Part shown: one piece after another, positions 16,101 to 27,723 of the stretch
How the letters are laid out: the number at the start of each line of letters is the position of its first letter
Position numbering within the stretch: position 1 is the stretch's first letter
Origin: a virus
Direction: 5' to 3' (one strand)
DNA: 29,620 nt
IMG/VR virus record: IMGVR_UViG_3300044971_001831
Span: 1-29,620 of that record
Program-made: the position numbers and the translations under genes
The notes under the pieces: generated by a model
The model's input: the letters and a program-made list of their open reading frames with translations, nothing else
Databases searched by the model: none
What the model was told of the DNA's origin: nothing

Positions 16101-16171
16101 TGACTTTAAGTGGTACCGATAATTTAGAATTAAATGTGGGAATAAATTTTGATATAATATGTAATCAATAA
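13154..16171 (+). CDS. Large tail/baseplate structural protein (1005 aa) with cysteine cluster and a C-terminal domain shared with the next gene
   Basis: The start lies two bases after the previous stop, with an A-rich leader and no Shine-Dalgarno sequence. Around residues 430-490 a segment SAYLFKSKGTRKSIEILLRL, then IGAPEALIEFNEY, resembles a helix motif (Y-x-S-K-G-T-x-x-x-I) seen in long tail proteins of large phages. That resemblance is from memory and tentative. Residues about 835-870 hold a cysteine-rich linker (TGCQLVPVPCDPCYAVG, then FDCPIQSVNCPIYPW). The last 115 residues (VDVRLNGNQI through VVTIYNNNC to NFDIIC) align by eye with the end of the downstream SprB-repeat protein, suggesting a common trimerisation or attachment domain. 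The TAATG overlap with that gene implies coupled, stoichiometric production. A tail spike or baseplate hub-to-fibre connector fits, but is inference. Confidence 0.68.
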   Translation: MAVTRYTCPPQSASGQGTFSDNLVGLQLVDGGGFTQANFEFTTSITEKQDRNFSIGAFSEPISLDSLNIENVTESRVLQANNFRVYPNFDLSQVTNFTLYGSLVKRISTSVSHIINFFPGGIEITSNLPNFSTSETATNIQYDSVENETSFDVYINALRNPFDIDYSSNANRNFELLEIEVSSLRNFTSNYAKYSLFINDGEYPFIFFSPSNNTSTTLSFVVKGNPFSGNNISYDTLVIRPNDMYVNKTFNESMDEVEQFLLNRSITPIYTSTFTVPRENEDGTIYLTTQTITFPKNGVWNLDITSAAFDNYLLTLNEFAANLDSYRTNLISRFLTTGAIKEFDTPDQKIEKVLQIYGRSFDETKKFISALSNMNNVNYNIKNDIPSQLLKNLAMTLGWDTNISPITNDQLLDSVFGTGSNNFSGLSVGMTPEELNYQYYRNLILNSAYLFKSKGTRKSIEILLRLIGAPEALIEFNEYIYIADQKINIQEFNGQYAQLSGGTYIQQLPTLDTTDIFSIQGQQFTGFTTISVVTDVNVFPEDYPIDDFGYPMMPAVSDSYFFQIGGGWFESTPQHRMPEQVDLTNSVFTGSNPNYQTTLLPFNYGEEYLQRYRTFPYMNLGYKLRRVVDNKKSWTDTENGLRENYDGNFNAYYPVSDDKLVINVKNVDIFMNPAQGLVYDVWTMSRQYNYPIPNEGLNYIEPTRCNPTPNTPYPQRGGIDWTEINPKPKEKTFFEFAQTFWHNMINVRNRQFITDGKTGGYPTLQSIYWKYLESGQAINVPNDNFTYQTMIDYVNGLGTYWIKLIEQMVPATTIWNTGTKLENSIFHRQKFVWRRQTGCQLVPVPCDPCYAVGQLIPFDCPIQSVNCPIYPWGSSPSVNSFGVVLGQVLTTYLDNNGYDLNNDCLVNTLTSEWYVDVRLNGNQIIDYKFFDGYGYSVSGTSFPTQTNWLNALYDSLPQLIDSGLTFNIDETTNVVTIYNNNCMTLSGTDNLELNVGINFDIICNQ

Positions 16172-18348
16172 TGGGAGTAATAACAATATATGATTATTCT
16201 GTTACGGGCGATTGCTCAAACGTAGGTGCGGGTGAAGTAACATTTAAAGTGACGGGTGATAGCCCTACTTGGTATGTTGTTCAAACCCCAACACCTAATA
16301 ACCCACTACCAACTTCAGGTTTAACGGGTTCGGATACCTATTATTTTTCTGGATTAACGGGAGGATCGTACTTTTTAAATGTATATGACTCAAGTGGTGA
16401 ACCACCAACACTTCGGGAAGTTTCCATTTATATATCGACAGGTACTTGTGTTTCTATAGAAACTATGGACACAACTTGTGGTTTTGATAATGGAGGTATA
16501 ACCGCTTACACCCAATCTGTTTATAATTACGCTTCATTTTACTTATTCGATATTGATCACAACTACGTTAATAGTGGTACTTCAATTACAAATGAATATG
16601 TTTTTCCACCACTTTCTGCTAACACGTATTATGTAATTGCAGATGATGGAGGTGGTTGTTCAGGTAGAAGTGAATCTTGTATTATTGGAGACTCAACACC
16701 ATTCACATACGGTTATTATGTTGTGAATAATGGTAGTTGTATATCTGGAAATACGGGTGGGACAGGTAAAATATTTTTAACAGGATTATCCGATCCAAGT
16801 TTATATACGATTAATTGGTTAAATGGTATAACGGGTCAATCAGGTCCTAACGTAACTGGATTAACAGAAGGTGTTTATAACGTGCAAGTTATTGATCAAA
16901 ATGGTTGTGAGTCAAATAAATCAATTATAATATCGGGAACTCAACCATTAGGTATTGCGGGATATATGACATATCCTCCAGATTGTTTTGATAATAACGG
17001 AGAGATAACAATAATTGTAACGGGAGGTACTGCGCCTTATTATATTGGATGTTCTAATGGTGATAGCGCAATAATATTTGAAAATGAATATACATTCACT
17101 GGTTTATTCTCAGGAACTTATACTTTTAATATTATAGATGCTGGTATTTGTACAGTGTCGGGAGCTACTTCAATAAACACACCAAATAGTTTTAGTGTTG
17201 TTAGTGTGACTAGCTCAAACTCGATGTGTAACGATAATTCGGGATCTGTAAGTATTATATTAAATGGGTCTGGATCTTACACGTATAGTTTAACGGATTC
17301 GTTAGATAATACAACAATTTATGGACCAACAACTAATATAACTCAACAATTTAATACCTTATCTTCGGGTGATTATGATTTAATAATCACGGATGGAGTA
17401 TGCACTTACGAAACTACCGTTACCATAGATAATACTGAAAAGTTTACAATATCTGCAATAACTCAAAATACAACTTGTGGATCAAATAACGGATCTATCC
17501 AATTATTTGCAAGTAGTGGTGGTACATTACCTTATAGTTATCAAATAACAGGGTTTCCACCTTCATTAACAACAAGTTTTAATAATTTGGCTCCTGGTAA
17601 TTATGTTGGAACCGTTACGGATAGTACGGGGTGTTCACAAACTTTAAATTTATATGTGAATAACTCTAATGGGGTACAATTTGATTTTGTTGTGACTCAA
17701 CCAACAAATGGTAATAATGGTGAATTATCAACATTAATATTCAATGGGTCTCCAACATTTACATATAATTGGAGTTCTAATGTTAATGGACAAACGGGGT
17801 CAACAGTGACATCATTAAGTGCTGGTACGTATAGTTTAGAGATTATAGATTCAAGTGGGTGTACTTTAACTAAAACGGTAGACCTTTTTGGGAAAAAGAG
17901 TTCAATAAGTTACCAAACATATAATATATGTAATGACGACTTCCAAAATACCGGTATATTAGGTAAACGAGGTATGCAACAAATGTTATTAGAAGGTTTT
18001 AATGATTTAACTCTTGATGATGTTGGTTGTGTAATATCAACCGCCGATTTTATTGCCGATGTTACCGTCGATGGTGAGAACGTCCAACAATCATTTTATG
18101 TGTCATCAGGTTTAACTGATTATCCTTCTGATTATACTTGGGGTCAAACTTTAATTGATGTTTTAGAAAGTTATGATGGTGTAAGTAAAGTTGAAATTGA
18201 TTACACCACAAATGAAATTAAGATCTATAATAAATGTGTTGAAGAGGCGGGATGTGTTGGTGGTACAACATATTATTTATCGGATGCAAATATTATAATC
18301 AACTTAAAATTGGTATATAATATTTCTTGCGTTCAGTGTAACATTTAA
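16171..18348 (+). CDS. SprB-repeat fibre/adhesin-like virion protein (725 aa)
   Basis: The protein is a chain of about seven repeats of 70-85 residues. They begin near residues 1, 100, 187, 270, 350, 434 and 511. Most follow the SprB pattern: a Cys and Asn/Asp-Gly start (TTCGFDNGG, PPDCFDNNGE, NTTCGSNNG), a central Pro-Tyr or Tyr strand, then L-x-x-G-x-Y-x-V-x-V-x-D-x-x-G-C (LTEGVYNVQVIDQNGC, LSAGTYSLEIIDSSGC). SprB repeats are known from the giant gliding adhesin of Flavobacterium johnsoniae and other Bacteroidota surface proteins. There is no signal peptide or type IX sorting domain, so this is not a secreted host-type adhesin. Residues about 575-725 form a distinct C-terminal domain like that of the preceding gene. 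The TAATG start and the tail operon argue for a tail fibre. Receptor binding is inferred. Confidence 0.8.
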   Translation: MGVITIYDYSVTGDCSNVGAGEVTFKVTGDSPTWYVVQTPTPNNPLPTSGLTGSDTYYFSGLTGGSYFLNVYDSSGEPPTLREVSIYISTGTCVSIETMDTTCGFDNGGITAYTQSVYNYASFYLFDIDHNYVNSGTSITNEYVFPPLSANTYYVIADDGGGCSGRSESCIIGDSTPFTYGYYVVNNGSCISGNTGGTGKIFLTGLSDPSLYTINWLNGITGQSGPNVTGLTEGVYNVQVIDQNGCESNKSIIISGTQPLGIAGYMTYPPDCFDNNGEITIIVTGGTAPYYIGCSNGDSAIIFENEYTFTGLFSGTYTFNIIDAGICTVSGATSINTPNSFSVVSVTSSNSMCNDNSGSVSIILNGSGSYTYSLTDSLDNTTIYGPTTNITQQFNTLSSGDYDLIITDGVCTYETTVTIDNTEKFTISAITQNTTCGSNNGSIQLFASSGGTLPYSYQITGFPPSLTTSFNNLAPGNYVGTVTDSTGCSQTLNLYVNNSNGVQFDFVVTQPTNGNNGELSTLIFNGSPTFTYNWSSNVNGQTGSTVTSLSAGTYSLEIIDSSGCTLTKTVDLFGKKSSISYQTYNICNDDFQNTGILGKRGMQQMLLEGFNDLTLDDVGCVISTADFIADVTVDGENVQQSFYVSSGLTDYPSDYTWGQTLIDVLESYDGVSKVEIDYTTNEIKIYNKCVEEAGCVGGTTYYLSDANIIINLKLVYNISCVQCNI

Positions 18349-18362
18349 TTTTAATAATTTTC

Positions 18363-18396
18363 TAATATCTTTTACTTTATGGAAGATATTATTTTT
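18363..18396 (+). promoter_or_regulatory. Hairpin around the glycosyltransferase start codon
   Basis: TAATATCTT (18363-18371) is the exact inverted complement of AAGATATTA (18383-18391), giving a 9-bp stem whose 11-base loop contains the ATG at 18379. A run of five T follows at 18392-18396. It could limit initiation or act as a weak terminator for readthrough from the fibre gene. It is AT-rich, so stability is modest and the role is uncertain. Confidence 0.35.
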
Positions 18397-19353
18397 GTAA
18401 CCGCACAACCTGATGTACCATATTTTCATTGGCAGGTAAAACTTTATACTCATAATTTTATTGAGAAGGGAATTAAACCTTGTCAGATTCATGTTATATT
18501 TGGGTTACAGAAGAAACAACAACCATCACAAGGTGCTTTGGAATTATGTGATTATGGGTTTAATGTTCATTTTTATGATGACGATAGAGATATTAAATCA
18601 TACATCCCAAGTATTAAACCATATTTAATTTTTCAATGGTTAAAAGAGTATCCTGAAAATGGGAAGTTATTCTTTTTACATGACTCAGACATCATATTCA
18701 ATAAATTACCTGATTTTAGTAAATTACTCAATGATGATATTTCATATTTGTCTGACACCATAGGTTATATTGGGTATAATTACATTAATGATTGTTGTGT
18801 TAGGTATGAGAAGGCACACCCAACGTCAAGTAAAGGGCAACTATTACAAGAGATGGCTGACGTTATTGGGATTGATGTTGAGTTGATTAAAAAAAATCAA
18901 GAAAACTCAGGCGGAGGACAATACCTCATCAAAAATACGGATCCATTATTATGGGGTAAGATTTATGATGATTGCACACCATTGTATAACCAAATGTTAG
19001 ACTACCAAAGGAGGTTCCCAATAAATCCTGGTCAAATACAATTTTGGACTGCGGAAATGTGGTCGTTATTATGGAATATGTGGAATTCGGGTTATGAAAC
19101 AAAAATAACAAAAGAGTTAAATTTTTCTTGGGCAACCGACGACATTAATATTTATAATGAAAATCCAATATTACACATGGCAGGAGTTACCGACCAGTTA
19201 AGACATACGAAATTTTATAAAGGAGATTTCATAAACAGAAATCCAATTGAGGATTTAAAAAACGATGAAAATTTCTTTAATTATGTGGATGAAAATAGTT
19301 CTACGATTAAATATATTGAAGTAATGAAGTCATTTTTGGAAAAAAATAAATAA
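18379..19353 (+). CDS. GT-A-fold glycosyltransferase, resembling peptidyl Ser/Hyp glycosyltransferases
   Basis: This 324-aa soluble protein starts MEDIIFVTAQPDVPYFHWQV, the usual first strand of a GT-A nucleotide-sugar transferase. LFFLHDSDIIFNKLPDF carries D102-S103-D104, the metal-binding DxD. Further on are a TAEMW motif (residues 224-228, E226 a candidate catalytic or acceptor-site residue) and a late histidine H266 in HMAG, which would be the third metal ligand. The spacing D-x-D-x-I-F-x-x-x-P, then E-M-W/Y, then H recalls plant and algal serine/hydroxyproline O-glycosyltransferases. It sits between fibre genes and its neighbours carry Thr/Pro-rich stalks, so modification of virion proteins is an attractive inference. 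Alteration of host surface glycans is the alternative. It lacks the TATTTAT box of the virion genes. Confidence 0.68.
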   Translation: MEDIIFVTAQPDVPYFHWQVKLYTHNFIEKGIKPCQIHVIFGLQKKQQPSQGALELCDYGFNVHFYDDDRDIKSYIPSIKPYLIFQWLKEYPENGKLFFLHDSDIIFNKLPDFSKLLNDDISYLSDTIGYIGYNYINDCCVRYEKAHPTSSKGQLLQEMADVIGIDVELIKKNQENSGGGQYLIKNTDPLLWGKIYDDCTPLYNQMLDYQRRFPINPGQIQFWTAEMWSLLWNMWNSGYETKITKELNFSWATDDINIYNENPILHMAGVTDQLRHTKFYKGDFINRNPIEDLKNDENFFNYVDENSSTIKYIEVMKSFLEKNK

Positions 19354-19358
19354 CTGAT

Positions 19359-19366
19359 TATTTATT
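19359..19366 (+). promoter_or_regulatory. Candidate late promoter box TATTTATT
   Basis: The 17-base gap before the ATG at 19371 contains TATTTATTAG followed by TA and the ATG, nearly the same arrangement as at 650-664 upstream of the baseplate operon. The close repeat at the same distance suggests a shared initiation signal. Confidence 0.4.
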
Positions 19367-19370
19367 AGTA

Positions 19371-20690
19371 ATGGGAACTCAACCGATAACAATAAAACCT
19401 GTAAATGAATGTACAATAGTTACGTTATTTCCAATGACGGCTATATGTAATAATGTTAACCCAACTAACCCACAATCATATGATGGGTCAGTTAGTTTAA
19501 TGATTAGTGGTGGAACTCCACCGTATAATATTATATGGGAAAACGGGGGTTCAGGTCCAACAAAAGACAATCTTGGTATTGGAGATTATAAAGCAACGGT
19601 AGTTGATTTTTATGGTGATTTTACCGCATATACAACTTGTAGTTTAACGGCTACGACAACAACTACGTCAACGTCAACGTCAACTACGACATTACCAAGT
19701 TATGAAGATCTATGTATGTATTTCTATGAAAGTGCTGGATCTAACATTGAAACTCACCAATTCTTATTTAATGGTTATTTAAATGGAAAACCAACTTGGG
19801 TATCTGATGACGACGAGTATTCAATTTATTGGAGTACTGGTACAACAAATCAATGGTTAGTCGATGGATGGGATAACGGGATTATTTATAATTCAAATAC
19901 TTCTTCATTACCGTTAACAGGATGGCAATTCTTGGGTGGAAGTTATTCAGGATTCTATACCATTTCAGTTAATGAAGGAAGTTGTGTTCAAAACGTAACT
20001 ATTAATTTATCTATAAGTTCCCAATCACCAACCTGTGGTGGTAACGGTAGTATAATAGTAAGCGCAAATGGAGGAAGTCCAGCTTATCAATATTCTGTTA
20101 ATGGAGGAACCACTTATCAATCAAGTCCTGTATTTAACAATTTAACAAGTGGTATGTATTCGGTTACGGTTAAAGATTCGAATAATGTAACAACTACTCA
20201 AACAATTACATTATCACCACCACCGCCAAATCAAACTTATCAATTAACATTAGCGTTAAGTGGTCCAAATGCATTTAATGTTACCGTTTCACCGGCATTA
20301 CCTGTCGGAGCTAGTATAACTTATACTATAAAACACGAAAGTGTGTTTACGACCGCTCCGTCAACTACTGTGGCGGTATACAATAATGTTGTAACGATTA
20401 GTATCAATGGAGTTCCGATTACGACTCCAACACCTATATTAACTCCAACAACATCATTTAACCCTTGTAATTCAGGTTCGTTCTTTACTAATACAAATGT
20501 TACCACTTGGCCTAATTTAACGTTTAACTCAACCACTACGGTAACTGGTACATATACCAACACGGTAAATCCAATTACTCCTTTGGCGGAATGTTATTCA
20601 GTTGACGCAACAACGGCAATATATATTTCAAGTGCAACATTAAACAATTGTAATTGTTGTAACCTAACAATAATAAATCCAAAGAGATAA
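19371..20690 (+). CDS. Mosaic fibre-like protein with two SprB-like repeats and Thr-rich stalk (439 aa)
   Basis: Domains in order: a SprB-like repeat (about residues 25-90, YDGSVSLMISGGTPPYNIIW), a Thr/Ser-rich linker (residues 93-108), a Trp- and Gly-rich domain (about 110-205, including IYWSTGTTNQW and LTGWQFLGG) that recalls lectin-like modules of phage proteins, then a second SprB-like repeat (about 218-282, SPTCGGNGSIIVSANGG, then LTSGMYSVTVKDSN). Next come a Pro run, a beta-rich Thr/Val segment, and a short cysteine end (NCNCCNLTI). The linker DNA contains the 6-base tandem repeat TCAACG, which could change length by slippage in frame. There is no signal peptide. Between the glycosyltransferase and another fibre gene, it likely forms part of the host-recognition apparatus, and its linker is a plausible O-glycosylation substrate. 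Confidence 0.68.
   Translation: MGTQPITIKPVNECTIVTLFPMTAICNNVNPTNPQSYDGSVSLMISGGTPPYNIIWENGGSGPTKDNLGIGDYKATVVDFYGDFTAYTTCSLTATTTTTSTSTSTTTLPSYEDLCMYFYESAGSNIETHQFLFNGYLNGKPTWVSDDDEYSIYWSTGTTNQWLVDGWDNGIIYNSNTSSLPLTGWQFLGGSYSGFYTISVNEGSCVQNVTINLSISSQSPTCGGNGSIIVSANGGSPAYQYSVNGGTTYQSSPVFNNLTSGMYSVTVKDSNNVTTTQTITLSPPPPNQTYQLTLALSGPNAFNVTVSPALPVGASITYTIKHESVFTTAPSTTVAVYNNVVTISINGVPITTPTPILTPTTSFNPCNSGSFFTNTNVTTWPNLTFNSTTTVTGTYTNTVNPITPLAECYSVDATTAIYISSATLNNCNCCNLTIINPKR
19667..19684 (+). repeat. 6-base tandem repeat in Thr-rich linker
   Basis: GTCAAC is repeated in tandem about three times (ACGTCAACGTCAACGTCAAC region), encoding alternating Thr-Ser. A change of unit number keeps the reading frame and adds or removes two residues. 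Confidence 0.6.
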
Positions 20691-20719: not shown

Positions 20720-23263
20720 ATGAGCTATATATTAAAAAATACATCAGGTTTAGTTAACACTAGAATTACCGATACCGGAAGGTTAAAATTATCACAAGGT
20801 AATTTTAATATATCCTATTTCCAAATTGGGGATAGTGAAGTGTCATATAATGAATTACCAAACACTTATAACCAATTTAATAGTGTGGTTTTAGAACCAA
20901 GTTTTAATAGTCAAAATAGTGCAGGTATACCTGAATCAAACAAACAAAACGTTAAGTATCCATATTATGTGGATGATAATAATAGTAACACTTATGGTAT
21001 TCCATTTATGGATTCCGTTATTGAACCTGTTTATAACAGAGCACCATTAAGAGGGTTTTTTACGGGTAACACAACCGCAAGTACGATTAATTATAGTGCA
21101 TTTACGGGATCTAAATATGTTGTAACATCTAACTACATTGTTGATATGGCAACATTAAATGGAACAAATCAAATTAAAATTATATATGATGTGTGTGATC
21201 CGACAAACACTAGAACACCTAATGTTGGGGATTTCATAACAATATATTATGATGGTTTAGGAAAATTAGATTGTTCTTGTTATGACCTACCAACACCAAC
21301 ACCTACGGCAACCATAGGAACAACCCCAACATTAACAAATACACCAACTGCGTCAAATACGAATTATAATCCATGTGCGTCACCGACACCAACACCGACA
21401 CCATCGGCAACACCGTGTTTGACTCCATCTAGTAGACCTGTATGTCCTTTACCGCCTGATCCTTCATGTGTTAAACCGGCACATTCTTGTTTCCCTATTT
21501 TAACATATAGAATAATAGATATATGTGAGGATAATGTTACATTAGATAGACCTACACCTAATTATGTTGGATTAAGTACATTTTGTTTTGGTAGAGTATT
21601 AGTATACCCACCAAACATGACAACAATCTATGATAGTATTACACCAAGACCTCATTGGGCTGACGATGTGATTAATTATGAATCAATATGTGATATTGAT
21701 CAGTTTGATGTTAAAGTTTGGAACATGAACATTCCTTGGACCGAAAGTCCAGCTGGTTTAAGATCAACTGAGTTTGAAGATTATACTTATTTTGGATCTA
21801 TAGATTATATTGGTAGTAAAGAATATTTCGGATACAACTCAACTTCGGGTCAAACTGACACAAGTTATACATATTATTACAATTCATTTGATGAGATTGT
21901 ACAGGTTAAACCTGAAGAACAAAAAGCTATTGCAATTATACACTATACCAATCAAACTATTGATTTCTTCTATGGTGAGAAATTTGCGTTAGAACCTTAT
22001 GATAATTCAAATCCTGATGATACAACGGGTCAGGCAAGAAACTTTAAATTACATATCCCTACATTAATGTGGCATAAAAATCCTGAATGTTGTTATGGAC
22101 AAACATTTTGGGTTGATCCTCCAGGATTTGATGGTAAAGACTTATTCCAAGTTCAACACATTAAGTCAACTAAGAATAGTGATATGAACCAACCTGGTAT
22201 ACGTTACTATCACTTATGGGACACTAACGCAAATGCAGATGGATTACCAAGTAGAATTGGTAAAGTATTCCCTGATAGTAAATTAATTATTATTGATGAT
22301 GAGGAGATAATTGCGGCATTATCATATAAGTCAAATCGAAATTGGACATTAACGGCACCTCAAGTATCGTTAATAACTCCGAACACTTGTGGTTTAACAA
22401 CCGCAACAACAAATGGTATTTTAACTGGTAATGGTGAAACTATGTATGTTACTTATCGTTTAAGTAATCCAAGTAATTTTACTAATTCATTACATTCTAA
22501 CTATTACTCTAAAATTGTGGGTAATAATAATGATTGTAATCCCGATACATCTAAAAATGTGGCGGTTAGATTTGGTGCTGAATTTAAATGTTTAACTCAG
22601 CCATCGTATAATCCTATTACGACTACATCAACAACGTATTCACCTTTAACGACAACAACCACTTATTACCCAATAACTACAACAACAACTTTCCATCCTC
22701 TAACCACAACGACTACCACGCTATGTCCTACGGTTTGTGATACACCAAATGGGTTCTTCGCCACTACTTTCCAAGTAATTGCACAAAAAGTGGTTACAGG
22801 TCAAAGACCTGATCCATCTAAATGGAAAGTTATTGATTATACAAGTTCATTATCTACAACTACGGTTAATGGATATATTACTGAGGATGGGTTAACAGGT
22901 ACTACATTTGTTATAACACCTGATCTTTATAATAACGCACCATACTATAATCTTAATAACTACATACCATTAACACCACTTGGTAACACATCACAAAAAC
23001 TTAATTTTGGTGATGAATACTTTTTCTATGGGGCATTTGAAAGTGATATTCAGGCAACAATTTATGAGATGAGGTATAAGGTTAATTTAAGTTTTGCTGA
23101 GTTCCAAACCACAACAAATCCTACATGGAAAAAAGGAGGAAATTCTTACATTACTGAGATTGCGTTACTTGATAGTAATAAAGATGTTATGGTTATTTCT
23201 AAGATGCAATCACCAGTCTTAAGGCAGGGTATCCAACAGTTCGTAGTCAAGTTAGATTTGTAA
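20720..23263 (+). CDS. Mosaic virion/fibre protein with Pro-Thr and Thr-rich linkers (847 aa)
   Basis: The N-terminus (MSYILKNTSGLVNTRITD, then SQGNFNISYFQIGDSEVSY) looks like a virion attachment domain: a compact, conserved-looking start without signal peptide. A Pro-Thr-rich linker with cysteines spans residues 191-247 (PTPTPTAT, SPTPTPTPSATPC, then CPLPPDPSCVKPAHSC). A large Tyr/Asp-rich globular domain covers about 250-630. A second linker at 632-668 repeats the unit Y/F-x-P-L/I-T(4-6) four times, ending LCPTVC. The C-terminal 175 residues form another beta-rich domain. The multi-linker layout suggests an extended, flexible fibre or whisker. The Pro-Thr linker DNA is an inverted match to linkers of the minus-strand fibre gene at 24011-27502. 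The exact virion role is unknown. Confidence 0.66.
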   Translation: MSYILKNTSGLVNTRITDTGRLKLSQGNFNISYFQIGDSEVSYNELPNTYNQFNSVVLEPSFNSQNSAGIPESNKQNVKYPYYVDDNNSNTYGIPFMDSVIEPVYNRAPLRGFFTGNTTASTINYSAFTGSKYVVTSNYIVDMATLNGTNQIKIIYDVCDPTNTRTPNVGDFITIYYDGLGKLDCSCYDLPTPTPTATIGTTPTLTNTPTASNTNYNPCASPTPTPTPSATPCLTPSSRPVCPLPPDPSCVKPAHSCFPILTYRIIDICEDNVTLDRPTPNYVGLSTFCFGRVLVYPPNMTTIYDSITPRPHWADDVINYESICDIDQFDVKVWNMNIPWTESPAGLRSTEFEDYTYFGSIDYIGSKEYFGYNSTSGQTDTSYTYYYNSFDEIVQVKPEEQKAIAIIHYTNQTIDFFYGEKFALEPYDNSNPDDTTGQARNFKLHIPTLMWHKNPECCYGQTFWVDPPGFDGKDLFQVQHIKSTKNSDMNQPGIRYYHLWDTNANADGLPSRIGKVFPDSKLIIIDDEEIIAALSYKSNRNWTLTAPQVSLITPNTCGLTTATTNGILTGNGETMYVTYRLSNPSNFTNSLHSNYYSKIVGNNNDCNPDTSKNVAVRFGAEFKCLTQPSYNPITTTSTTYSPLTTTTTYYPITTTTTFHPLTTTTTTLCPTVCDTPNGFFATTFQVIAQKVVTGQRPDPSKWKVIDYTSSLSTTTVNGYITEDGLTGTTFVITPDLYNNAPYYNLNNYIPLTPLGNTSQKLNFGDEYFFYGAFESDIQATIYEMRYKVNLSFAEFQTTTNPTWKKGGNSYITEIALLDSNKDVMVISKMQSPVLRQGIQQFVVKLDL
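21290..21312 (+). repeat. Pro-Thr linker repeat, inverted partner of 25377-25399
   Basis: CCAACACCAACACCTAC (21290-21306) is identical to the reverse complement of 25383-25399. With one mismatch the match extends to 23 bases. Both copies lie in the same codon phase (Pro-Thr) of two convergent fibre genes. Confidence 0.7.
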
Positions 23264-24010: not shown

Positions 24011-27000
24011 TTATACGTTTAGATTTACCGTTAAACAATTTGGTACTTGAGATGCTCCGAATACAGAATAACCACCCCCTCCGGTTTGAATTGTCTGAAC
24101 GTAGACTGGTGTGTGAGGAGCATTTAGTGGAATATTGTAAACATTACCATCAACATTTGTTATATAAAGTAAACCTGATGATTGGAAAATACCGTATGGG
24201 TATGGTGTAAAGTTTGTTATTTCCACATCAACTTCTAATGTCCCTGTTGAATAATCATATTGACTTAAGAATGTTTTAAATGTAGGGTTGTACGATACTG
24301 AAGTCACTAAAACCTTGCCGGTTGTCGTTAATAATAAATCTCCCGAAACTACTCTATCCGATGATAACGTGAATAATATTGTTGGAACCGCATTATTTGT
24401 TGTAATGTCAAGTTCAATTATTTGGGCTGGTATAGTACTTCCATTTGAACTTAATAATTTAGTGTTTGATACGGCACCCATACCACTACCTAACGGATAA
24501 GGTTGTGTAATATCCCTATTAAATGTTAATGACCAAGGAGAAAGTGTAATATCATATTCTTTTATTACTCCACCACTAGTAACCCAAAGTTTATTTTGAG
24601 TGTGTGCAATATCTGTTGAAATTGGTATTACACCTAATTCTGTTGAAATATTAGTTGACAAGTCATAAGAGTAATAATATGGACTATTAGTATTAAATAT
24701 TAACGAACAAGTAGGAACATAAACTCCTTGTGTTGGTGTAGGTGTGGGTGTAACTGATGTTGAGGTTGGTGTGGGAGTTGGATTACAAAGACCAATATTA
24801 GTTATTGAGATGAAACTTGAAGTTGTTGTTGGAAGTGTAGATGAACATATTGTTGTTGATCCATATCCGTCAAGAACTCCGTCAACAGGTAAACCAGTAA
24901 TACATGATGTATATGAGAATGTTTGAGTTTGTATGTAACTATTTTCGATTAAATAGTTATTACAAGTTGGTAGAGGTGATGAAGCCGTTGGTGTTGGTGT
25001 ACTAGTTAATGTTGGGGTAGGTGTTGGGGTATTTATGATAACACATTGTGAACACGCTCCGTCAATCAATTTACCAAGTATACTCGTTAAATTAATAGTA
25101 TTAACTCCTGCGATATTACTAACAAATCCTTCGTATGATATACAAGTTGAAATACCATCAACAAATGATTGATATACGTAACCCTCAGCCGGTGTACCAC
25201 CAAATGGATCTAATACTACATCCGTTGTGTGATACAACATTCCTGACACACAATCTTTGAAACGTTTACTTCCGTTACATCTGATGTAGTCATCAAATGT
25301 ATTGAATACCACTGAACCATCAAAATTACAATTATATTGAGGTGATGCGGTTGGTGTTGGTACCATTTTACCTCCAGTTGCGGTAGGTGTTGGTGTTGGA
25401 GTGTATACAACTACATTTATTGACATTGCTCTACCACCACATAATTCAGTTGCGGTAGGTGTTGGGGTTGGTGTTAGTGTTTTTGTAGGTGTTGGTGTGG
25501 GTGTTGGAGTTATAGGTAAATCACAATCAAACGCCGCCTCAAAAGATATTGTTTGACAATATTGAGTTGGAGTTGGTGTAGGCGTAGGACATACTCCTGG
25601 ATTGAAAAACCCATCACATAAATCGGGACAATCATTGTTACATGGTGACGGACCAAATAATAAACATGGGTCTGCAAAGTCAGTTGATAAACACCAACAA
25701 TTTTCGGTAGGAGATAAGAATATTAGTAAATTATTTGTTTCACCCGTCCAAAATGTTTGATCATTATATGTACCCGCACTATAGTAAGTACCATCATAAA
25801 AAATATTACCTGTAGAAACACAGTAAGATTCAAACGGGCATTGAGGTGGTTCTTCATTACAAACACTACAATCATTAAATTCAGATTCAACTGTAAGAGG
25901 TGTTAATGTTTCATAATTAGATGTTTGACCACTATATTCCCAACATCCACTAACTTCTTCAAATGTATAAACATTACCTAAAACAACACCTGAAGTTGTA
26001 TTACTAAATAAACTATTTGATGGTTGTTGAAAACCATCAAGAAATATATCATAAAATTGACTAGAACTTTGAGATGCGGTTAAGTAACCTATTCTTGTTG
26101 ATCCGGTAAATTTTAATAATTCATCACCGACTGCGTAATTTGGAGCTCCGGTCCAAGTATTTATATCTGTTAAATCAAATTGAAATAATAATGTATATGG
26201 GTTTGGTTGACCTGGTTGAATAGCTCCAGAAAATAGACCCATTCTACTTGTTGTATATATTTCAATTATATTACCGGTTTTAACTATTCTAACTCTAACT
26301 TGTCCTTTTGTATTATAATCCCCATTTCCAAATGGAGATGTTACACCAGACATTACTTGAGATGATGTTGTGCTACCGTTGTTAAATGCGTAAATATCTT
26401 GACCCGAATTATAATAAACGAAAGCTCGACCAAGATTTCCTGGTTGTGAATTTCCATTAAATGATAATGATAGGTAGTCAGTAACTTCAGGATTAGTACC
26501 CAAACCTTTATTAGCGGCTAAAACGATACCTATGGTATCATCATCTGAATCAGTACTACCAATAGTTATTTCGTGGGTATAATCACCGTACGCACAAACA
26601 CTATAAAACCCATTAACTAAACCTGAGTTTAGACTACATTGAATCATTTTTGGGACACCACCAGCATCATTAATTTTATTACTAGCTAAAACTACGGTAT
26701 TAGTTAAACCACTTACAGTATATTGTGTTGAGGTTAAGTTAGTTGTAGACCAATTTGTCGATGTTGTTAACCCTTGTGCTGCGGTTGGATTCCCTAAAGG
26801 TATACTAACATTCGCGGTTGGGTTAAATGTTGTCCATACTTGGACTGAGGTACCATAAGCACGAAAAGCGGTAACAAATTTATTTATAACCGTATTATAA
26901 TAAAATGTATTTAAAGGGTATGAAGATGGTAAACCTGGTCCAACATCTTCACCTTCAGTCATTGGAATATTTAATTCACCTAAATAATATGTGTTGGTTG

Positions 27001-27502
27001 CTCCTGTGTAAAAATAATATGATGGGTTATTAGTTATTATACTTCCGTCAGGTTGTAATCCTGTATTTTGTAAAGGAATAGGACTGAAAAGAATAGTTCT
27101 TCCTGCAAAGAACGCAAACCTGTTCCAGGTATTAAAAATATCGTCAGGATCATCACTAGGACCGAACTCAACAAAACCATTTTCACAATCGACTACTTCA
27201 CCACAACCCACAAAATAATCAACAGGGGGTAAAGTTGTAGTTGTTGTGGTTGTTGGACATAAATTAGGGTCACCAACAACGGTACCACCACTATAGTAGT
27301 AAAAATAACCTAAATACGAAAAATAAAATGGTCCTGATATTAAGTCTGGACCATTACAACCAGGTGCGGAATAAAGTGAATATGGTGTGGGAAAAACAAA
27401 ATATGTGTCATCACCCCAAACCAATACACTATCTAAAATACTTTCGTCGCATAAACCTTCGGATGTTGCACCCGTATATATTAAAAAACTACTACACGCC
27501 AT
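24011..27502 (-). CDS. Large fibre protein with five Pro-Thr stalks, lectin-like middle and propeller-like C-terminus (1163 aa)
   Basis: The frame opens at 27532, but the ATG at 27502 (MACSSFLIYTGATSEG) overlaps the stop of the upstream gene as TAATG, the coupling used throughout this window, so I choose it. Order: N-terminal Cys/Tyr/Gly-rich domain, a Thr run (about residues 82-90, CPTTTTTTTLPP), a beta-rich region, and about residues 290-490 resembling a concanavalin/thrombospondin-type lectin sandwich (STDSDDDTIGIVLAANKG). A cysteine-rich segment (about 555-640) follows. Pro-Thr stalks lie near 635-646, 661-687, 697-721, 823-845 and 905-925. The C-terminus (926-1163) shows at least four spaced motifs of type Y/L-D-x-S/T-T (YDLSTN, EYDIT, ELDITTN, QYDYSTG), like blades of a beta-propeller. 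There is no signal peptide. Likely role: long receptor-binding fibre with glycan-binding tip. Domain calls are by eye. Confidence 0.68.
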   Translation of the reverse strand: MACSSFLIYTGATSEGLCDESILDSVLVWGDDTYFVFPTPYSLYSAPGCNGPDLISGPFYFSYLGYFYYYSGGTVVGDPNLCPTTTTTTTLPPVDYFVGCGEVVDCENGFVEFGPSDDPDDIFNTWNRFAFFAGRTILFSPIPLQNTGLQPDGSIITNNPSYYFYTGATNTYYLGELNIPMTEGEDVGPGLPSSYPLNTFYYNTVINKFVTAFRAYGTSVQVWTTFNPTANVSIPLGNPTAAQGLTTSTNWSTTNLTSTQYTVSGLTNTVVLASNKINDAGGVPKMIQCSLNSGLVNGFYSVCAYGDYTHEITIGSTDSDDDTIGIVLAANKGLGTNPEVTDYLSLSFNGNSQPGNLGRAFVYYNSGQDIYAFNNGSTTSSQVMSGVTSPFGNGDYNTKGQVRVRIVKTGNIIEIYTTSRMGLFSGAIQPGQPNPYTLLFQFDLTDINTWTGAPNYAVGDELLKFTGSTRIGYLTASQSSSQFYDIFLDGFQQPSNSLFSNTTSGVVLGNVYTFEEVSGCWEYSGQTSNYETLTPLTVESEFNDCSVCNEEPPQCPFESYCVSTGNIFYDGTYYSAGTYNDQTFWTGETNNLLIFLSPTENCWCLSTDFADPCLLFGPSPCNNDCPDLCDGFFNPGVCPTPTPTPTQYCQTISFEAAFDCDLPITPTPTPTPTKTLTPTPTPTATELCGGRAMSINVVVYTPTPTPTATGGKMVPTPTASPQYNCNFDGSVVFNTFDDYIRCNGSKRFKDCVSGMLYHTTDVVLDPFGGTPAEGYVYQSFVDGISTCISYEGFVSNIAGVNTINLTSILGKLIDGACSQCVIINTPTPTPTLTSTPTPTASSPLPTCNNYLIENSYIQTQTFSYTSCITGLPVDGVLDGYGSTTICSSTLPTTTSSFISITNIGLCNPTPTPTSTSVTPTPTPTQGVYVPTCSLIFNTNSPYYYSYDLSTNISTELGVIPISTDIAHTQNKLWVTSGGVIKEYDITLSPWSLTFNRDITQPYPLGSGMGAVSNTKLLSSNGSTIPAQIIELDITTNNAVPTILFTLSSDRVVSGDLLLTTTGKVLVTSVSYNPTFKTFLSQYDYSTGTLEVDVEITNFTPYPYGIFQSSGLLYITNVDGNVYNIPLNAPHTPVYVQTIQTGGGGYSVFGASQVPNCLTVNLNV
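25340..25600 (-). repeat. Cluster of Pro-Thr coding repeats (GTAGGTGTTGG units)
   Basis: The unit GGTGTTGG, coding Pro-Thr on the minus strand, recurs many times. A 19-base sequence CAGTTGCGGTAGGTGTTGG occurs as exact direct copies at 25375-25393 and 25447-25465. Further units lie near 24730-24780, 24995-25035 and 25485-25515. Exchange between copies would keep the reading frame. Confidence 0.75.
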
Positions 27503-27723
27503 TATACACTTATATTTTCTATTATCGTACAATCATTATCATCAATCACTTTAACCACAAAATCTGTTAATGAGGAAAAAATTGATGGAATCATAAAAGA
27601 ATATGGTAAGTTACCACTATTAATAGTTGACACATAAATACAAGTTGTGTATCCTGTGTCACACACGTAAACATCATAAGGTGATATTCCGGTAATAGAA
27701 GTGATTGTAATGTTTGTACCCAT
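27502..27723 (-). CDS. Small single-domain SprB-like protein (73 aa)
   Basis: The protein is about one SprB-like repeat long. It starts MGTNITITSITGISPYDVYV and ends FVVKVIDDNDCTIIENISV, matching the Y/F-x-V-x-V-x-D-x-x-x-C close of the repeats in the 725-aa fibre protein. Two further cysteines (YVCDTGYTTC) are in the first half. The MG-x-x-I-T-I start is shared with the virion genes at 16171 and 19371. Its TAA overlaps the ATG of the large fibre gene, so it leads a two-gene minus-strand operon and may help that fibre fold or attach. It has no signal peptide or membrane segment. Function is unknown beyond this. Confidence 0.65.
   Translation of the reverse strand: MGTNITITSITGISPYDVYVCDTGYTTCIYVSTINSGNLPYSFMIPSIFSSLTDFVVKVIDDNDCTIIENISV

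Follow-up and report, generated by a model that had tools for sequence, protein, structure and literature searches.

Glycosylation of virions by phage-encoded enzymes is established in mycobacteriophages, where Che8 gp108-110 and Corndog gp38 act in this way (Freeman et al. 2023, cited through PMC12619734 and PMC12363180), and the glycans are reported in these two papers to lie at the C-termini of the capsid and tail-tube subunits. The locus analyzed here belongs to a virus record 29,620 bases long, the whole of which is referred to as the window. It is similar to the mycobacteriophage system in that a phage-encoded glycosyltransferase is associated with capsid and tail subunits, which in Firmicutes relatives of the window carry poly-Thr tails, although the glycan here is a predicted one. 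It is different in that the Che8 enzymes belong to PHROGs 8858, 1721 and 854 rather than to PHROG 4417, and in its acceptor and hosts. When Che8 gp108, gp109 and gp110 were compared with the profile of the present family, no significant match was obtained, and the capsid and tail proteins of Che8, the one mycobacteriophage checked, contained no Ser/Thr run longer than 2. As judged from these comparisons, the enzyme family and the acceptor differ between two systems that would work alike. No report of poly-Thr virion tails or of PHROG 4417 was found in the open-licence literature.

The enzyme and the Thr runs of the window

The tail region of the window is of the myovirus type, with the products of the 662 and 1127 genes matching PHROG baseplate-wedge families. 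The baseplate-wedge genes are followed by large virion-type genes and then by genes for a RuvC-like resolvase, a primase and an exonuclease. The features discussed below are listed in Table 1.

Table 1. Position and basis of the features of the window discussed in the text
Feature	Position (nt)	Strand	Basis
Virion-type protein with SprB repeats, encoded immediately before the enzyme gene	16171..18348	+	SprB, E 1.7e-11
GT-A-type glycosyltransferase-like enzyme of 324 aa (PHROG 4417), presumed to O-glycosylate poly-Thr	18379..19353	+	Profile, AF2, Foldseek, conserved residues
439-aa virion-type protein with SprB repeat and 13-residue Thr/Ser run; presumed acceptor	19371..20690	+	SprB, E 1.4e-6; run at nt 19653
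847-aa conserved protein in the tail/baseplate gene block; presumed acceptor	20720..23263	+	Thr5+ in homologues; contrast between GT-positive and GT-negative relatives
Poly-Thr cassette in the 20720 protein: TTTSTT / TTTTT / TTTTT / TTTTTT, with 4-residue spacers containing Pro	22619..22720	+	Absent in GT-negative relatives
1173-aa protein with T7 run near the N-terminus and Pro-Thr repeats; possible further acceptor	24011..27532	-	Residue runs

The open reading frame of the enzyme is present, and the residues that the initial annotation had named as its active site (D102, D104, E226 and H266) were all found at those positions, within D102-S-D104-I-I-F and E226-M-W and as a late His. The span that it had assigned to the glycosylation module, 18379-20690, contains the enzyme gene, but it also takes in the 19371 gene, whose product is the presumed substrate and not an enzyme. 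The protein is a full-length member of PHROG 4417 (phrog_4417, E 8.4e-70, residues 6-318 aligned to positions 3-290 of the 293 in the profile), a family annotated as being of 'unknown function'. Sequence searches of Pfam, NCBIfam and the PDB gave no match for this protein; in the PDB, the single sequence retrieved nothing and the family profile retrieved chance hits only. Among 80 diverse homologues, the alignment revealed that D102, D104, W223 and H266 are invariant, while position 226 is either E or D.

As pointed out in the initial annotation, a D-x-D motif that runs on into I-F-x-x-x-P, together with a His late in the protein, resembles the arrangement in HPAT and Ser O-galactosyltransferases. 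However, the kinship with HPAT that had been proposed on this ground was rejected by the profile tests, in which the plant/algal HPAT family (PF23452) did not match at the glycosyltransferase gene in any of 49 records (E<=10) and matched 1 of the 80 homologues, at E 0.14. The profile check for the CAZy family GT8 also turned out negative, since the window protein had no Pfam hit and GT8 was absent from the list obtained for the 80 members.

An AlphaFold2 model built from the alignment of the 80 homologues had a mean pLDDT of 97.0 and a pTM of 0.93. A Foldseek search of the PDB with this model returned 338 matches at E<=0.001, and the best of those listed were mostly GT-A enzymes. The nearest solved folds were WbbM, UGGT, XXYLT1, LARGE1, GT6 and glycogenin (E about 1e-7 to 1e-5), all of them remote, with TM values of 0.38-0.47 and about 10% identity. 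The initial annotation had held that a best match to a lipid or polysaccharide glycosyltransferase would speak against its reading. The first rank is indeed taken by WbbM, a bacterial polysaccharide (O-antigen) glycosyltransferase, which formally counts against that reading, but its TM is 0.47 and the scores of the protein-acting UGGT and of XXYLT1 and LARGE1, which act on glycans on proteins, are nearly equal. According to the model, the likeness to these four enzymes, as to GT-A folds of the GT8/GT24/GT6 types, reflects the same superfold only, and the fold does not decide the class of acceptor. Among viral structure models, only those of the enzyme's own family and LP65 orf49 were close to it. 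The model and the invariant DxD thus identify the gene product as a GT-A glycosyltransferase-like enzyme, for which sugar transfer is predicted.

The Thr, Ser-Thr and Pro-Thr stretches described for the 19371, 20720 and 24011 proteins are present. The 19371 protein carries 'TATTTTTSTSTSTTTLPS', in which 13 consecutive residues are Ser or Thr, a length reached in none of 5000 shuffles. The 20720 protein, the predicted structure of which is of low confidence (pLDDT 45.8), has a cassette of four 'P(I/L)TTTTT'-type units, and the 24011 protein has 'CPTTTTTTTLPP' in addition to its Pro-Thr repeats. Taken singly, the runs of these last two proteins are weakly unusual for their composition, being reached in 264 and 184 of 5000 shuffles, respectively, but those of the 20720 protein are conserved, as 73 of its 78 homologues have five or more consecutive Thr. 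No Ser/Thr run of at least 5 was found in the protein encoded directly upstream of the enzyme. This protein and the 19371 protein contain SprB repeats, which are otherwise known from gliding adhesins of Bacteroidota; their presence suggests that the phage has a Bacteroidota host.

Distribution and phylogeny of the enzyme

The enzyme family covers several hundred viral contigs, with at least 254 and at least 492 relatives recovered in single scans. Relatives occur in Bacteroidota-type phages, with an identity of 65-90% for the window's clade. The enzyme was also found in 74 phage records that nearly all belong to phages of Bacillota hosts, and the cultured phages that encode it infect Enterococcus, Lactobacillus, Lactococcus, Staphylococcus and Chryseobacterium. 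Examples are Lactococcus phage 1706, Lactobacillus phage iLp84 and Enterococcus phages phiFL1A and VPE25, and a prophage with the enzyme is bIL285 in Lactococcus lactis IL1403. Homologues also exist in bacterial genomes; many homologues are located in prophages or bacterial contigs, and the enzyme occurs in small prophages of about 36-40 kb. The gene sits in the late head/tail block, where it immediately follows a capsid, tail or tagged gene. In one contig (IMGVR_UViG_3300031565_000415, loci L513 and L009), a 12246-type gene apparently runs opposite to the enzyme block, unlike in the window, which might be a rearrangement or an assembly artefact.

In the phylogenetic tree of the enzyme, we recovered a Bacillota clade (support 100/100), a chromosomal clade of Bacteroidota (100/99) and several other phage clades, for which the label 'Bacteroidota phages' rests on Chryseobacterium phage MA9V-3, one Bacteroidetes MAG and SprB repeats. 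The chromosomal clade comprises ten Bacteroidota loci (L246, L247, L248, L250, L254, L279, L280, L286, L287 and L288) that neighbour, in varied combinations, genes for GG-leader peptides, C39 peptidase transporters, HlyD, LanC-like proteins and grasp-with-spasm maturases; TIGR04192 and TIGR04193 scored above their cut-offs in L250 and L288. The precursors contain Ser and Thr and no run of five Thr. In at least four members (L250, L280, L287 and L288), the enzyme is joined to a second glycosyltransferase domain, which belongs to PHROG 15655 and weakly matches PHROG 1721, where gp109 of mycobacteriophage Che8 is also placed, and all of the fused relatives tested match PHROG 4417 at E about 1e-50 or better. 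From this gene content, the products of these RiPP-like clusters are probably glycosylated ribosomal peptides, and the setting, which is independent of phages, would also point to peptide or protein acceptors for the enzyme.

Association of the enzyme with Thr runs

We scored runs of five or more consecutive Thr (Thr5+) within three genes of the enzyme in 112 non-redundant loci. An open reading frame with such a run was found in 95 of them, and these frames were concentrated at positions -1 or +1/+2. By group, the neighbour was present in 31 of the 33 loci of the window's clade, 27/29 of those from other Bacteroidota phages, all 12 from Bacillota phages and 25 of the 38 chromosomal ones; the exceptions mostly belonged to the chromosomal clade in RiPP clusters. 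The length of the runs peaks at 6 Thr (5-7). All four Thr codons are used, and 474 of the 475 runs contain more than one of them, illustrating that the runs are under selection at the protein level and ruling out DNA slippage as their origin.

In Bacillota phages, a protein ending in poly-Thr is usually encoded directly upstream of the enzyme, as with the tail protein of phiFL1A, which has ...DNGTTTTTSTTTTTTSSTTTTTTTQASSK. Nine annotated isolates were read closely, and in each of them Thr5+ was carried by a capsid protein, a tail protein or a small Ig/Fn3-like protein encoded close to the enzyme. The 'fibre stalk' of the initial annotation was not borne out, because the tagged proteins of Firmicutes phages are mainly major capsid and major tail proteins. 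In addition, we noted small proteins with long (PTTTTTTT)n-type tails encoded immediately before the enzyme (L085:7643-7990, L295:3614-3991, L122:5642-6001 and L290:5633-5986). The protein of L122 has an Fn3 domain, and some of these proteins are annotated as 'major tail protein'; they look like dedicated glycan-display decoration proteins.

The presence of the tag was then compared between genomes with the enzyme (GT-positive) and without it (GT-negative). In the siphophage major tail protein family (79 viral loci), a C-terminal Thr5+ occurred in 14/14 GT-positive and 1/65 GT-negative members, the only exception being from a truncated contig of 5.5 kb. The capsid protein of the same genomes, which is unrelated to the tail protein, had Thr5+ in 13/13 GT-positive and 0/43 GT-negative cases. 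Fisher tests gave 1e-14 for the tail protein and 5e-13 for the capsid protein, values that overstate independence and are indicative only, as the rows are related. On the tail-protein tree, the distribution of the enzyme requires 5 changes, 4 of which are forced by well-supported branches (about 4 independent changes), and the Thr tag switches in step with the enzyme, apart from the truncated contig.

The same pattern was found in the window's own clade, in which some contigs are near-identical: the 20720 homologue had the Thr cassette in all 14 GT-positive contigs and in none of the 7 GT-negative ones, the cassette being the part that is missing from the latter. Five GT-negative relatives could be read at the syntenic site, where the order of the 16171, 19371, 20720 and RuvC genes is kept and the enzyme is absent; their 19371 and 20720 homologues are present and contain no Thr run over 4. 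Pro-Thr alternation, which had been put forward as the acceptor, is kept in both the GT-positive and the GT-negative contigs of this clade, whereas the Thr runs vanish with the enzyme. Thus, the correlated feature is the Thr run and not the Pro-Thr stalk, and Pro-Thr stretches were discarded as acceptors. As the alternation does not depend on the enzyme among the 20720 homologues, the Pro-Thr repeats of the 24011 protein are probably not acceptors either.

A scan for T8-coding DNA was made blind to the enzyme. Among the viral contigs that it returned, the enzyme was present in 9 of the 48 whose open reading frames include a T7 run and in 0/26 of the others. The other 39 of the 48, many of which are fragments, carry no PHROG 4417 enzyme, so the link goes from the enzyme to the tag and not the reverse; some of these contigs may use another glycosyltransferase family. 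The enzyme and the Thr tags are tightly gained and lost together.

Proposed modification of virion proteins and its alternatives

The best explanation for these observations, and in our view a highly probable one, is that this phage enzyme is an O-glycosyltransferase and adds sugar to the poly-Thr tags of virion proteins. In this scenario, the cytosolic GT-A enzyme would take a sugar from a nucleotide-sugar donor and transfer it, before or during assembly, to the Thr hydroxyls of short poly-Thr tags on virion proteins encoded in the same late gene block. In the window's phage, the sugar would be placed on the 19371 protein, on the four Thr units of the 20720 cassette and perhaps on the T7 stretch of the 24011 protein; the acceptors of Firmicutes siphophages would be the tails at the C-termini of their major capsid and major tail proteins and of the small Fn3-like proteins with (PTTTTTTT)n. 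The outcome would be a virion studded with O-glycans. We infer the reaction, the donor sugar and the Thr O-linkage, as well as a retaining mechanism, which is suggested by the GT8-like fold, and a purpose that could be to stabilise the virion, to shield it from factors of the host or of animals, or to aid adhesion. Of the O-glycosylated virion stalks first envisaged, the Thr-rich virion proteins stand as the best candidate acceptors on comparative evidence, while the HPAT kinship, the Pro-Thr acceptor and the fibre stalk do not.

The link between the enzyme and the tag could also be genuine if the Thr run served as a docking site or spacer and the glycan were attached elsewhere, to an adjacent domain or to Ser/Thr that are not part of the runs, as might be imagined from the RiPP-clade relatives, which adjoin peptides without Thr runs. 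We consider this improbable, since the Thr run is the sole feature common to three unrelated types of protein, all four Thr codons are in use and the peak at 5-7 residues is what might be expected for an acceptor motif. The hypothesis that the enzyme acts on glycans of the host surface (teichoic acid, LPS or capsule) for lysogenic conversion or superinfection exclusion, with Thr-rich neighbours by coincidence, would fit the first rank of the O-antigen enzyme WbbM among PDB folds and the frequent occurrence of homologues in prophages or bacterial contigs. The position of the gene inside the late head/tail block and its tracking of Thr tags on two unrelated virion proteins make this hypothesis quite improbable. 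That the enzyme glycosylates modified bases of phage DNA seems extremely improbable. Phage glycosyltransferases often act in this way, as is generally known and is cited in PMC12619734, but profile searches of the window recognised no modified-base pathway among its genes, the gene is placed in a structural operon and associated with Thr tags, and the enzyme is found in small prophages of about 36-40 kb.

It is reasonably likely that the enzyme and the poly-Thr runs form a portable two-part tagging system, in which short Thr runs on any virion protein provide a transplantable acceptor for one small soluble PHROG 4417 enzyme. Such a system would be common to Bacillota and Bacteroidota phages, would have been co-opted for ribosomal peptide natural products, with a second glycosyltransferase fused to the enzyme, and would represent a mucin-like system in viruses of bacteria. 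The poly-Thr link suggests a function for a widespread family that has none annotated, and predicts sugar-coated capsids and tails in many dairy phages and in some enterococcal and staphylococcal phages, where the coats could affect stability, immune recognition and adhesion. The frequency of virion glycosylation beyond mycobacteriophages thereby becomes directly testable in phages already cultured, and the pairing of a small, soluble enzyme with so simple a tag as poly-Thr is potentially useful for producing glycoproteins in bacteria. In one Bacteroidota-type phage, a stand-alone PHROG 1721-like glycosyltransferase (L171:6890-8599, E 8e-15) is encoded directly downstream of the enzyme and may extend the glycan.
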